NCBI GenBank assembly: GCA_039030075.1
Contig: JBCCEW010000011.1
Coordinates: 1-64,000, forward strand
Source of the DNA: Myxococcota bacterium
GTDB lineage: Bacteria; Myxococcota_A; UBA9160; SMWR01
Direction of reading: 5' to 3'
DNA length: 64,000 nt
Shown: piece by piece, positions 43,372 to 47,634 of the stretch
Numbering within the stretch: the stretch's first letter is position 1
Layout of the letters: every line of letters begins with the position of its first letter
Translations under genes and position numbers: made by a program
The notes under the pieces: model-generated
The model's input: only the letters and a program-made list of their open reading frames with translations
Database searches by the model: none
What the model was told of the DNA's origin: nothing

Positions 43372-44613
43372 TCAGCCGTTCGCGGTCTTGGCGGCGAAGC
43401 GTTCCTTGTCGAGGCGCCAGCGGGTCGGCCCCGACAGCTCCCGCTCGACGGGCGGCTCCAGGGACGGCGGGTCCTTCTCGGGATCCTCGTAGCGGGCCAG
43501 GATGTCGTAGGTGGTCGAGCGCTGGACGGGTACTCGGCCGACCTCTCGAATCAGACGACGCATGTCCTCGGCGGGCAGGTTCTCGCCGAAGTCGGCACCG
43601 GACTCGCGGCTGATCGACTCTTCCATCAGCGTGCCGCCCATGTCGTTCGCGCCCGACATCAGCGCCATCTGCGCGACCTTCGGCCCCATCTTCACCCACG
43701 ACATCTGGATGTTGCTGATCCAGGGCCGCAGGAAGAGCCGGGCGATCGCGATCAGCTTCAGATCTTCGGGCATCGACGCCCCGGGCCGGGCATCGAGATG
43801 GTTGAAGAGCACGTTCTTCTCGTGGATGAAGCCGAGGGGCACGAACTCGGTGAAGCCGCCGGTCTGCTTCTGGATGTCGCGGATCAGCTCGAGATGCCCA
43901 GCGATGTGGTGGGGCTTCTCGATGTGGCCGTACATGATCGTGGCGGTCGAGCGCAGTCCGATCTCGTGGGCGGCCGTCACGATCTCGACCCAGCGATCGC
44001 GTCCCAGCTTGTTCGGACTGATCACCTGGCGGATCTCGTCGTCGAGGATCTCGGCCGCGGTGCCCGGCATCGTCCCGAGCCCGGCATCGACCAGCCATTG
44101 CAAGAACTCGGGCAGCGGCATTCCCGACTTCTTGTGGGCGAAGTCCATCTCCTCGGGCGAGAAGGCGTGGATGTGCAGCTTCGGGAACTCGCGCTTCAGC
44201 GAGACGAGGATCTCACGGTAGTGGTGATGGTCCTTCGACGGGTGGATGCCGCCCTGGATGCAGACCTCCGTGGCGCCGCGCTCGACCGCGTCGCGGGCCT
44301 TGGCGACGAGCTTCTCCATCGGGTGGTCGTAGGCGTCGTCTTCCTCGCGGTGCCGCGAGAAGCCGCAGAACGTGCAGCCCACGTAGCAGACGTTCGTGAA
44401 GTTGATGTTCCGGCAGATGACGAAGGAGACGTCGTCTCCCTTGTCGAGCTCGCGGGCGAGATCGGCCGTCTGCATCAGCGCGAAGAGGTCGCGCCCCTGC
44501 AAGCCGAGCAGCGCCTCGACGTCGTCGCGCCGAAGTTCGTCGCCACTGAGCGCGCGATCGAGGATGCGCGCCGTCCCCGGCGTCGCGAGGGAAAGGAAGG
44601 CGTGTTCGGTCAT
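43372..44613 (-). CDS. cofH: FO synthase subunit 2 (CofH), radical SAM
   Basis: 413 residues. The radical-SAM [4Fe-4S] motif is CYVGCTFC, preceded by FVICRNINFTNVC. Distinctive CofH segments follow: IQGGIHPSKDHHHYREIL, AFSPEEMDFA, GTAAEILDDEIR and MMYGHIEKPHH-like TIMYGHIEKP. CofH couples an iminoquinone precursor to 5-amino-6-ribitylaminouracil, the first step to FO and coenzyme F420. Its ATG overlaps the cofG stop. Confidence 0.9.
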   Translation of the reverse strand: MTEHAFLSLATPGTARILDRALSGDELRRDDVEALLGLQGRDLFALMQTADLARELDKGDDVSFVICRNINFTNVCYVGCTFCGFSRHREEDDAYDHPMEKLVAKARDAVERGATEVCIQGGIHPSKDHHHYREILVSLKREFPKLHIHAFSPEEMDFAHKKSGMPLPEFLQWLVDAGLGTMPGTAAEILDDEIRQVISPNKLGRDRWVEIVTAAHEIGLRSTATIMYGHIEKPHHIAGHLELIRDIQKQTGGFTEFVPLGFIHEKNVLFNHLDARPGASMPEDLKLIAIARLFLRPWISNIQMSWVKMGPKVAQMALMSGANDMGGTLMEESISRESGADFGENLPAEDMRRLIREVGRVPVQRSTTYDILARYEDPEKDPPSLEPPVERELSGPTRWRLDKERFAAKTANG

Positions 44614-45836
44614 GCCGCTTCTCCGACCGGGCGCGGGTCTCGTCGTACCCAACCCTGCTCGTCGACGAGCGCCATGGCGGCCTCGCGAACGCGCGGCTCG
44701 AAGTAGTCGGGCCGCGTGAGCAGGTGCTCGGGATAGACAGGGAGCCGTTCTACCAGGCGCTGCCCGGCGGCCACGGTGCGCTTCTCGAGCTCACGCAGGG
44801 CCGGCCAGGGGGCCTCGGGGTTGATGAAATCGACCGTCAGGGGCGAGACGCCCCCCCAGTCGTTGAGTCCCGAACGCAGCAACTGCTCGAGCACCTCGGG
44901 AGCGAGATTCGGCGGCGCCTGCACGTTCATGTCGGGGCCCAGGATCAATCGCGCCATCGCCACCCAGCCTGCGACGAGATCGTCGGACAGGGGCTCGACG
45001 CCGCGCATCGGCGTGTCGTCCTTCGGGTGGAAGGGCTGCACGATCACTTCCTGGATGTGGCCGTAGCGATCGGCGAGATCCCGAATCGCGAGCAGCGTGT
45101 CGACGCGCTCGGCGTCGTTCTCGCCGATCCCGAGCAGCAGGCCGCTCGTGAACGGAATCTTCAGCTCGCCGGCCTCGGCGTGCATGCGCAGCCGCACCTC
45201 CGGATCCTTGTCCGGGCAGTAGTAGTGGGCCGCTCCCTTCTCACGGAGGCGCGGACTGGTGTTCTCGAGCATCAGACCGAGCGAGGCGTTCGTCTTGCGG
45301 AGCTCGGTCATCTCCTCGGCCGAGAGGATGCCCGAGTTCGTGTGGGGCAGGATGCCGCCGGCGAAGCCGACCTCGCAGGCCTGGATCAGGTACTCGGTCG
45401 TCGTCGAGAGGCCCCGTGCCGCCAGCCACTCGCGGTGGCTCTTGTACGCCACCTCGGGCTTGTCCCCGAGGCAGAAGAGTGCCTCGGTGCAGCCGGCCCG
45501 CACGGCGCCCGCCACGGCGTCGGCGACTTCGTCGAGGCTGTAGGTCTTGGCGTCGGGATCGTCGGGCTGCTTCGCGAAGGTGCAGTACGAACAGCGATCG
45601 CGGCACAGGTTCGTCAGCGGGACGAAGATGTTGCGCGAGACGCTGACGACATCGCCCTTGCCGCGCCGCTTCGACTCGTGGGCGGCGTCGAGGATCGCGC
45701 CGTGCAGCACCGGGTCCGTAAAGCCCGCCGCGAGGGCTTCGGCGCGGCCCCGCTCGAGGCGGCCGTCGTCTACGGCTTCCGCCAGCCAGCGGGCAGCGTC
45801 AGGAGCAGACGGGGGCGTCGTGTGGGGCGAATTCAT
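44610..45836 (-). CDS. cofG: FO synthase subunit 1 (CofG), radical SAM
   Basis: 408 residues. The radical-SAM motif is CRDRCSYC after SVSRNIFVPLTNLC. Then CLGDKPEVAYKSHREWLA, ILPHTNSGILSAEEM and VQPFHPKDDTPM follow in CofG order. CofG completes 7,8-didemethyl-8-hydroxy-5-deazariboflavin. Split cofG/cofH (not fused as FbiC) is the archaeal/proteobacterial arrangement. The ATG overlaps GTTGACATTGC with no Shine-Dalgarno site, so the start is less certain. Confidence 0.9.
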   Translation of the reverse strand: MNSPHTTPPSAPDAARWLAEAVDDGRLERGRAEALAAGFTDPVLHGAILDAAHESKRRGKGDVVSVSRNIFVPLTNLCRDRCSYCTFAKQPDDPDAKTYSLDEVADAVAGAVRAGCTEALFCLGDKPEVAYKSHREWLAARGLSTTTEYLIQACEVGFAGGILPHTNSGILSAEEMTELRKTNASLGLMLENTSPRLREKGAAHYYCPDKDPEVRLRMHAEAGELKIPFTSGLLLGIGENDAERVDTLLAIRDLADRYGHIQEVIVQPFHPKDDTPMRGVEPLSDDLVAGWVAMARLILGPDMNVQAPPNLAPEVLEQLLRSGLNDWGGVSPLTVDFINPEAPWPALRELEKRTVAAGQRLVERLPVYPEHLLTRPDYFEPRVREAAMALVDEQGWVRRDPRPVGEAA

Positions 45837-45861
45837 GCAATGTCAACCGCGGGGCGCGCGA

Positions 45862-45929
45862 GGAAGCATATCATCCCCTGAGAGGGGATATTTGCTTCCA
45901 TTTGGTTGACGCTTTGCTTCCACGGAAGC
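45862..45929 (-). promoter_or_regulatory. Cluster of inverted repeats upstream of cofG
   Basis: GGAAGCA (45862-45868) pairs with TGCTTCC (45893-45899) around an inner perfect hairpin ATCCCCT/AGGGGAT (45873-45879 and 45883-45889), together a 38-nt near-perfect structure. A second palindrome GCTTCC-AC-GGAAGC lies at 45916-45929. The word GGAAGC therefore occurs four times between folB and cofG. Candidate operator or attenuator. Confidence 0.6.
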
Positions 45930-45961: not shown

Positions 45962-46327
45962 CTAGAGGTCCTCACGGCTGCGCCGGACCACGACCCCGGC
46001 GTAGCGCAGGACCCCGGCGATCGGCGTGGGCTTCCGCACCTTCACCGTGATCGCCTGGGCATCGAACTGGGTCAGCACAGCGCGGGCGATCCGGTCGCCG
46101 AGCGCCTCGACCAGCTTGTGCTCCTGGTTGCCGGCGACATCCTCGACGATCTCGAAGACCCGCTTGTAGTGGATCGTGTGGCGGATCGAATCGCTGCGGC
46201 CGGCCTCGCGGAGGTCGCGCTCGATCTCCACGTCGAGCAGGACCGGGCGCCGCATGCGGCGCTCCACGGCGGTCACGCCGAGCGCAGCGGGCACCTGAAT
46301 ACCCTCGAGGAGGATCTTGTCTTGCAC
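45962..46327 (-). CDS. folB: Dihydroneopterin aldolase (FolB-like)
   Basis: 121 residues. HTIHYKRVFEIVEDVAGNQE, LVEALGDRIARAVL and VKVRKPTPIAGVL are FolB features; the Lys in KP is the catalytic position. It catalyses the retro-aldol step of folate synthesis. GTG start chosen for AAGGAG upstream. It reads toward cofG, 125 nt upstream of it, with a hairpin cluster between. FolX-like epimerase is an alternative. Confidence 0.83.
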   Translation of the reverse strand: MQDKILLEGIQVPAALGVTAVERRMRRPVLLDVEIERDLREAGRSDSIRHTIHYKRVFEIVEDVAGNQEHKLVEALGDRIARAVLTQFDAQAITVKVRKPTPIAGVLRYAGVVVRRSREDL

Positions 46328-46449
46328 GGGCCCGGTCTCCTTCGGCCTGGGGGAGCGCGGAGTATTCCGCTTCGTCGGCCCAGCGGCGAGGCCCGCGTGG
46401 CTCCGCGCGGCGCGACCGATAGACTTCGAGGCCCCTCTGGAGGTCAGCC

Positions 46450-47634
46450 ATGGATCTCGATGCGCTGCGGGCACGCGAAGCGGCCCATTTCCTGCCGGTC
46501 GTGAACCGCCACCCGGTGGCGCTGGTTTCGGGTCGTGGCTCCCGCGTCGAGGACGTCAACGGGAAGACGTACACGGACCTCATGTCGGGGTGGGGCGTGA
46601 CCTGCATCGGTCACTGCCACCCGGCGCTGGTCGCGGCGATTTCGCATCAGGCCGGCCAGCTGATGCAGACGACGAACATCTTCTACACGCTGCCCCAGCT
46701 CGACCTGATCGATCGTCTGGCCAAGGAGACCCCGGCGGACATCACGCGCAGCTTCCTCACCAGTTCGGGCACCGAGGCCGTCGAGGGCGCGCTGAAGCTG
46801 GCGCACCGGGCCACGGGACGGCGCGCGTTCGTGTCGACGGAAGGCGCGTTCCACGGACGCACCCTCGGTGCGCTGCAGGTGATCGGCACCGAGAAGCACC
46901 GGCTGCCCTATGCCGCGCTGATGCCCGAACAGGTCTGCGTGCCCTTCGACGACCTGGATGCCGCGAAGCAGGCACTCGATGACAGCATCGCCGCCTTCAT
47001 CGTCGAGCCCGTGCAGGGCGAGGGCGGCGTGAACGTGCCCAGCGACGGCTACCTGCGCGGCCTGCGCCAGCTCTGCGACGACACGGGGACACTCCTGATC
47101 TGCGACGAAGTGCAGACCGGCATTGGACGCACCGGCACCTTCCTCGCGTGCGAACACGAGGGCGTCACGCCCGACATCGTCACCCTAGGCAAGGGCCTCG
47201 GAGGCGGCTTCCCGGTCGCGGCGTTCCTGACGACGGAAGACGTCGCCAAGACGGTCCAGCTCGGAGACCACGGCACCACCTACGGCGGCAACCCCCTCGC
47301 CTGCGCGGCGGCCAACGCGGTGCTGACCGTGGTCGAGGAAGAGGGACTCGTCGCCCGCGCGGCCGAGCTGGGAGCGCGCCTGCAGGAGAAGCTGCGCGCC
47401 TTCGCCGAGCAGCATCCGGCGATCGCCTCGGGCGTGCGCGGGCGGGGCCTCTTGCAGGCCCTCGTCCTTCAGGACGCGGACCGCGCGGCGGCGCTCCCGC
47501 GTCAGGCGCTGGACGCGGGCGTCCTGCTCAATGTCACCGGCGGCAACGTCGTCCGCTTCTTCCCGGCCTTGAACATCCCCGAGGACGAACTCTGGACCGC
47601 CGTGGAGCAGGTGTTCGACTGCCTCGCGGACTGA
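46450..47634 (+). CDS. Class III aminotransferase, ArgD-like
   Basis: 394 residues. The PLP-binding Lys is in TLGKGLGGGFPVAA; DEVQTGIGRTG, FLTSSGTEAVEGALKLA and EGGVNVPSDGYL also fit acetylornithine aminotransferase. It is likely N-acetylornithine or succinyldiaminopimelate aminotransferase of arginine/lysine synthesis. GGAGG lies just before the ATG. No other arg gene is in the window. Confidence 0.88.
   Translation: MDLDALRAREAAHFLPVVNRHPVALVSGRGSRVEDVNGKTYTDLMSGWGVTCIGHCHPALVAAISHQAGQLMQTTNIFYTLPQLDLIDRLAKETPADITRSFLTSSGTEAVEGALKLAHRATGRRAFVSTEGAFHGRTLGALQVIGTEKHRLPYAALMPEQVCVPFDDLDAAKQALDDSIAAFIVEPVQGEGGVNVPSDGYLRGLRQLCDDTGTLLICDEVQTGIGRTGTFLACEHEGVTPDIVTLGKGLGGGFPVAAFLTTEDVAKTVQLGDHGTTYGGNPLACAAANAVLTVVEEEGLVARAAELGARLQEKLRAFAEQHPAIASGVRGRGLLQALVLQDADRAAALPRQALDAGVLLNVTGGNVVRFFPALNIPEDELWTAVEQVFDCLAD

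Follow-up and report, generated by a model that had tools for sequence, protein, structure and literature searches.

A candidate split BirA-type operator spanning the cofG–cofH promoter of a Myxococcota bacterium

The folB–cofG interval and its inverted repeat

We analysed the interval between folB and cofG in a 64,000-nucleotide stretch of a Myxococcota genome (the window; 69% GC). The following features were recognised there, with distances from the transcription start being predicted ones.

43372..44652, minus strand: cofH, FO synthase subunit (TIGR03551, 464.6 bits, cut-off 374), overlapping cofG
44610..45836, minus strand: cofG, FO synthase subunit, the gene proposed to be controlled (TIGR03550, 407.9 bits, cut-off 213)
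45840..45848, minus strand: downstream half-site GGTTGACAT, of BirA type and pointing inward, at about +11 to +19 (BirA-matrix score 11.7)
45862..45899, no strand: inverted repeat of 38 nt (cruciform or hairpin)
45865..45873, minus strand: TGATATGCT, very probable extended -10 element of cofG, within the hairpin arm that is 3′ on the strand of cofG
45893..45899, minus strand: GGAAGCA, proximal repeat in 11-bp phasing, next to the -35 position on its upstream side and also the hairpin's 5′ arm
45904..45912, minus strand: upstream half-site GCGTCAACC, of BirA type and pointing inward, at about -54 to -46 (BirA-matrix score 10.3)
45915..45921, minus strand: GGAAGCA, distal repeat in 11-bp phasing, upstream of the half-site
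45916..45929, no strand: GCTTCC-GT-GGAAGC palindrome
45962..46474, minus strand: folB ORF, upstream of cofG (PF02152; TIGR00525 match from residue 52)

Since folB, cofG and cofH all lie on the minus strand, the cluster has to be read on that strand; the nearest downstream gene on the plus strand is an argD-type aminotransferase, which starts at 46450. cofH and cofG probably share one transcript, and the true start of folB probably lies inside its ORF. As described in the initial annotation, a near-perfect 38-nt structure with a 7-bp ATCCCCT/AGGGGAT inner stem occupies 45862–45899 (plus strand GGAAGCATATCATCCCCTGAGAGGGGATATTTGCTTCC) and is followed by a second GCTTCC/GGAAGC palindrome, which ends at 45929. 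The four copies of GGAAGC between folB and cofG are likewise present, at 45862–45867 and 45924–45929 on the plus strand and at 45894–45899 and 45916–45921 on the minus strand. The folding energy of the 38-mer, about -20.8 kcal/mol, gives z -4.7 relative to dinucleotide shuffles of the same sequence, of which 1 in 1,000 was as low; 1.1% of the 38-mers of the window fold equally well. A dispersed repeat was ruled out, as the only full-length match in the genome is the locus itself. Over the whole window GGAAGCA occurs 13 times against 6.6 expected, a count reached by none of 100 shuffles; three of these copies belong to the cofG cluster.

With 7 + 8 base pairs the hairpin is strong, and from its place 63 nt beyond the folB stop codon it could serve as a terminator or transcript-end stabiliser of folB. 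However, no T-run follows it on the strand shared by folB and cofG, as had been noted; the weak terminator-like call (45873–45889) is on the plus strand only, where neither folB nor cofG lies. Moreover, the hairpin is absent from two genomes of the same family, one with folB directly before cofG (G004) and one with folB and another ORF before it (G008), which makes a role in ending the folB transcript highly improbable.

The cofG promoter and the RNA reading

The sequence TATGCT at 45870–45865 is very probably the -10 element of cofG, judging from its recurrence in related genomes. An extended -10 motif (TGNTANNNT or GGGTANNNT) was found 20–130 nt upstream of cofG in all five regions that carry the conserved box described below and in 24 of 68 regions without it, while dinucleotide shuffles of these 68 regions gave the motif in 1.6 regions on average and in 6 at most. 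A sigma-70 scan did not find a full -35/-10 promoter, as is expected for an extended -10 element without a -35. Transcription is predicted to start near 45858, giving a leader of about 21 nt, and the whole hairpin (45862–45899) would therefore lie upstream of the predicted transcript. The cofG ATG at 45836 has no normal Shine–Dalgarno site, as had been remarked.

The initial annotation had offered an RNA attenuator as one explanation of the hairpin. A regulatory RNA of this kind, attenuator or riboswitch, within the leader of cofG would be consistent with the folding of an 81-nt segment of the window genome (G000; z -4.2) and with the ability of the conserved half-sites to pair as an outer stem. 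However, in the four relatives with the box the equivalent segments gave z from -1.2 to +2.1, and the hairpin segment itself is unstructured in them: z was -0.2 in G001 (same genus), and +0.2, +0.7 and +1.1 in G008, G010 and G004 (same family), so that among the five box genomes the inverted repeat exists only in G000. The check by RNA covariance suggested at the time came out negative, as the helices first described are 55.9% and 66.7% paired in a five-sequence alignment and their covariation does not rise above that of shuffles. In the outer stem one pair is broken and two C-G pairs are changed to U-G, on one side only; there is no other variation. The alignment-wide fold keeps nothing but the outer GTCAACC/GGTTGAC pairing, which would cross the predicted start site. 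No Rfam match reached the gathering score in the window, and the -10 element, which recurs across the order, lies inside the hairpin. We conclude that the RNA reading is wrong or very unlikely. The hairpin of G000 is instead explained by the proximal GGAAGCA, which happens to complement the -10 region. The palindrome at 45916–45929 has a counterpart, GGCTTCC-N3-GGAACC, in G004 only.

Conservation of the box upstream of cofG

We searched 60 related genomes for CofG, 57 of which gave a match (weak radical-SAM matches counted), together with a collection of named genomes that contributed 28 CofG loci, mostly from Myxococcota or 'Deltaproteobacteria' assemblies. Seventy-three upstream regions were compared, among them some genomes entered twice under separate locus ids and one region of only 82 nt (L013); repeats of box genomes (L039, L040, L050) and L041 and L042 were excluded. 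GTCAAC was present at the matching position in 5 of the 73 regions, those of G000, G001, G008, G010 and G004. Of the 17 genomes of the family, 15 gave a cofG and 14 a readable region upstream of it, and in 5 of these 14 the box is present; across the order, the majority of such regions lack it. In the CofG tree the box genomes form no resolved clade (3 changes).

With the G of GTCAAC (45910) taken as 0, GGAANCA starts at -11, GTCAACY at 0, GGAANC at +11 and the -10 hexamer at +40 (TATGCT; the other genomes have theirs at +39 or +40), while GGTTGACA starts at +62. The distal repeat reads GGAANCA in G000, G008 and G004, with only its CA common to all five; the proximal one reads GGAANC in the same three genomes and is degenerate in G001 (GAAAAC) and G010 (AGAATC). 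The distance from the start of GTCAAC to that of GTTGAC is exactly 63 nt in G000, G001, G008 and G010 (four genomes of three genera), while that from the second box to the start of the CofG match varies (11, 13, 57 and 47 nt, respectively). Such a fixed distance despite the variable position of the start codon indicates a constraint set by the promoter rather than by translation. G004 keeps GGAACCA-N4-GTCAACC-N4-GGAATC, and downstream it has only GCTTGACGA, displaced by 2 nt (matrix score 6.6). What lies upstream of cofG varies: G000 and G004 have folB there and G008 has folB followed by another ORF, while in G001 and G010 the neighbour is divergent, an aminotransferase gene in the former and a gene labelled esterase-like from its sequence in the latter. 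The box stays while the neighbours vary, so it belongs to cofG. The upstream half-site of G010 occurs twice, forming the outward palindrome TTGACAGACTGTCAA (L021:1381-1395).

Whole-genome searches found the combination of these conserved elements once per genome, at cofG. With at most one mismatch, the array GGAANCAN4GTCAACCN4GGAANC has three matches, each at cofG, when 79 genomes of the order are searched. In the same set, GTCAACN33-34TANNNTN16-17GGTTGAC gave five, of which four are at cofG and one is in G021; this pattern was built from the same four cofG cases and is informative only about rarity elsewhere. A relaxed version of box plus -10 matched five times in 15 genomes, always at cofG (reversed-pattern control, 2), and a stricter version of this pattern three times in 90 genomes of the class, again always at cofG (control, 1). 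The match in G021, a genome of another family, is an inward GTCAACC...GGTTGAC pair around TATACT, 1 nt shorter than at cofG (L127:1501-1568; G021:C24:402753-402820), and it precedes an ORF that reads as a CorC/CNNM-like transporter. Roughly estimated, chance would supply about 0.7 matches of this kind over 79 genomes; this one may be another case in which the split arrangement is used.

That the box is missing upstream of most cofG genes in the order would be compatible with a simple promoter and no further functional element, the rest being chance. We find this barely credible given the 63-nt register, the confinement of the matches over 79 genomes to cofG (bar the one corC-like match for one pattern), and the absence of any inward half-site pair within 100 bp in 97 other loci (298,684 bp) scanned as background with the matrix described below. 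We are confident that a DNA-level promoter–operator is present at cofG.

The other explanation first offered, an operator for deazaflavin synthesis, thus stands in part: GGAANCA-N4-GTCAACC-N4-GGAANC is kept only upstream of cofG, whereas the hairpin itself is not conserved. Two findings had been named as counting against the original proposal, absence from relatives and a downstream start site, and both hold for the hairpin (the start by prediction); absence does not hold for the half-sites, of which the one at 45840–45848 had been overlooked. A search before other F420 genes had been suggested at the time. The array is found upstream of cofG in relatives, and at the cofD (L182) and photolyase (L163) loci of G000 the box is absent. 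G000 encodes two PF01933 proteins, one of YvcK type (L166, G000:C15:15079-15927), also present in G001 and G008, and one true CofD (TIGR01819; L182, G000:C21:43870-44673), so that F420, and not FO alone, can probably be made. Real CofD (TIGR01819) was found in G000 and G010, the weaker PF01933 match being widespread in the family; a first impression that the box correlates with cofD came from the YvcK-type paralogues and was discarded.

Likeness to BirA operators and the proposed mode of control

Table 1 of PMC545781 gives delta-proteobacterial BirA sites of the form TTGTcAACC-[N14]-GGTTgACAA before bioB, bioF and bioW. A search for GTNAACY-N14-16-RGTTNAC matched in 15 of 17 genomes of the family; of the 15 matched loci examined, 13 are before bioB, mostly between radA and bioB, and one (L189) is before bioF, while at another (L190) no biotin gene was recognised at the locus. 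Genes were called by tblastn and NCBIfam at L195 (L195:340-1419), by tblastn and a Pfam scan at L194 (L194:1520-3028) and by tblastn alone at L184. G000 has a textbook BirA operator between radA and bioB, CTGTCAACC-N14-GGTTGACAG (L195, G000:C5:37733-37760); the family genome search did not find a canonical bioB-type site in G004. The BirA ligase gave a single match in G000, a bifunctional BirA with HTH_11 and ligase (BPL) domains in one protein (L208). In G001, L198 has HTH_11 and BPL. An HTH-like N-terminus can be seen at two further loci, L200 and L206. No BirA ligase was found in the draft genome of G008.

A matrix was built from 13 bioB operators of the family, which supplied 26 half-sites. 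With both strands of the window counted, it reached a score of 10 at only five places, the two cofG half-sites among them, and the cofG pair was the sole inward pair within 100 bp in the window. In the five box genomes, 8 of the 10 inward half-sites agree with TTGTNAACC in 7–9 of 9 letters, and G001, G010 and G004 each have a 9/9 half-site at cofG; the weak ones are the upstream site of G001 (6/9, matrix score below 6) and the poor downstream site of G004. The cofG operator thus resembles the BirA operator bioO (TTGTAAACC-N14/15/16-GGTTTACAA) in the letters of its half-sites, their inward orientation, their helical face and their overlap with the promoter. It differs in the gap, 55 nt in four genomes and 57 in G004 (with its poor site) against 14–16 nt in bioO; in preceding cofG, and not the genes for biotin synthesis or transport that bioO serves; and in having extra GGAANC boxes in 11-bp phasing, absent from the bioB operators compared. 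Centre to centre, the cofG half-sites are 63 bp apart, or about six helical turns, against 22 bp, about two turns, for canonical BirA sites, and therefore both still lie on the same helical face.

Because its spacing is not that of BirA sites, we do not class the element as a BirA operator; BirA may still act on it. A passage in PMC4016012 reports that B. subtilis BirA does not bind a single half-site. We considered two canonical BirA dimers side by side, each using a weak inner half-site, and rejected this arrangement, since inner half-sites at the BirA spacing (N14) are not above chance level in the cofG box genomes. A bridging or wrapped complex may form on the two half-sites. Operators of the GalR and AraC type span promoters by DNA looping. 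The cofG operator is like them in having two sites on one helical face, upstream and downstream of the promoter; unlike them, it has a much shorter arc (63 bp), and each of its sites is one non-palindromic half-site.

We put forward, as a reading that is about evenly balanced, that the stretch is the cofG–cofH promoter with a split BirA-type operator which spans it and is read as double-stranded DNA and not as RNA. The extended -10 element would be flanked, on one helical face, by two inward half-sites, one near -52 that resembles TGTCAACC and one near +11 that reads GGTTGACA. One repressor would bridge both and either trap or exclude RNA polymerase. That repressor could be BirA in its biotinoyl-AMP form or another factor that recognises such half-sites, and cofGH would then be turned down when biotin is replete. 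Taken by itself, the assignment of the half-sites to a putative BirA or BirA-like reader falls just short of even. The fuller scheme is more tentative: such a reader would control FO/F420 synthesis through a new operator geometry, with half-sites split by about four extra turns, and would clamp polymerase between them, aided by the phased GGAANC boxes. The GGAANC boxes, one turn to either side of the upstream half-site, may bind a helper or an activator; their absence from the bioB operators compared suggests that they are sites for a second protein.

The same boxes also leave a substantial possibility, though well short of even, that this promoter–operator serves an unrelated regulator and that its likeness to BirA sites is coincidental, since the phased GGAANCA-N4-GTCAACC-N4-GGAANC array as a whole is not BirA-like. 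Phasing of 11 bp is open to AraC-like and OmpR/PhoB-like readings. By analogy, candidate readers would be an OmpR/PhoB-type or AraC-type activator on the 11-bp boxes, or a MerR-type light repressor such as CarH/CarA. FO can serve as a photolyase antenna, and G000 has a photolyase-family gene, which would suit light control. According to a passage in PMC9304148, CarH binds tandem 11-bp repeats over the -35 region in Myxococcales, which, by analogy, counts towards an unrelated regulator. Like the tandem nnnnTnnACAn repeats of Myxococcales CarH/CarA, the cofG boxes are phased at 11 bp beside a sigma-A-type promoter, and GGTTGACA contains TTGACA, comparable to TnnACA, a core shared by the outer boxes. 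However, these outer boxes form an inverted pair spaced by 63 bp and not a tandem one, and the phased GGAANC repeats lack TnnACA, so that CarH would fit the two TTGAC(A) boxes at most. The arrangement that defines a CarH/CarA site (three or more 11-bp repeats in tandem, with TnnACA in one or two of them at the least) was not found at cofG. The misfit of TnnACA to the GGAANC repeats and the lack of the box at the photolyase locus led us to reject light control of cofG by CarH. Against unrelated regulators in general stands the agreement with BirA half-sites described above, in letters and in inward orientation.

Word searches of open-access PMC papers found no description of transcriptional control of cofG or fbiC by a dedicated operator and no link between BirA and F420. 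We know of no metabolic or biochemical connection between biotin and FO beyond the fact that BioB, CofG and CofH are all radical-SAM enzymes. The half-sites hint that biotin status may control deazaflavin synthesis in this Myxococcota-related lineage. A conserved operator with cofG as its single target offers a handle on how the deazaflavin supply of bacteria is set. If BirA reads it, half-sites separated by six turns are within reach of a dimeric winged-helix repressor, and biotin status would be tied to the F420 or photolyase-antenna pathway.
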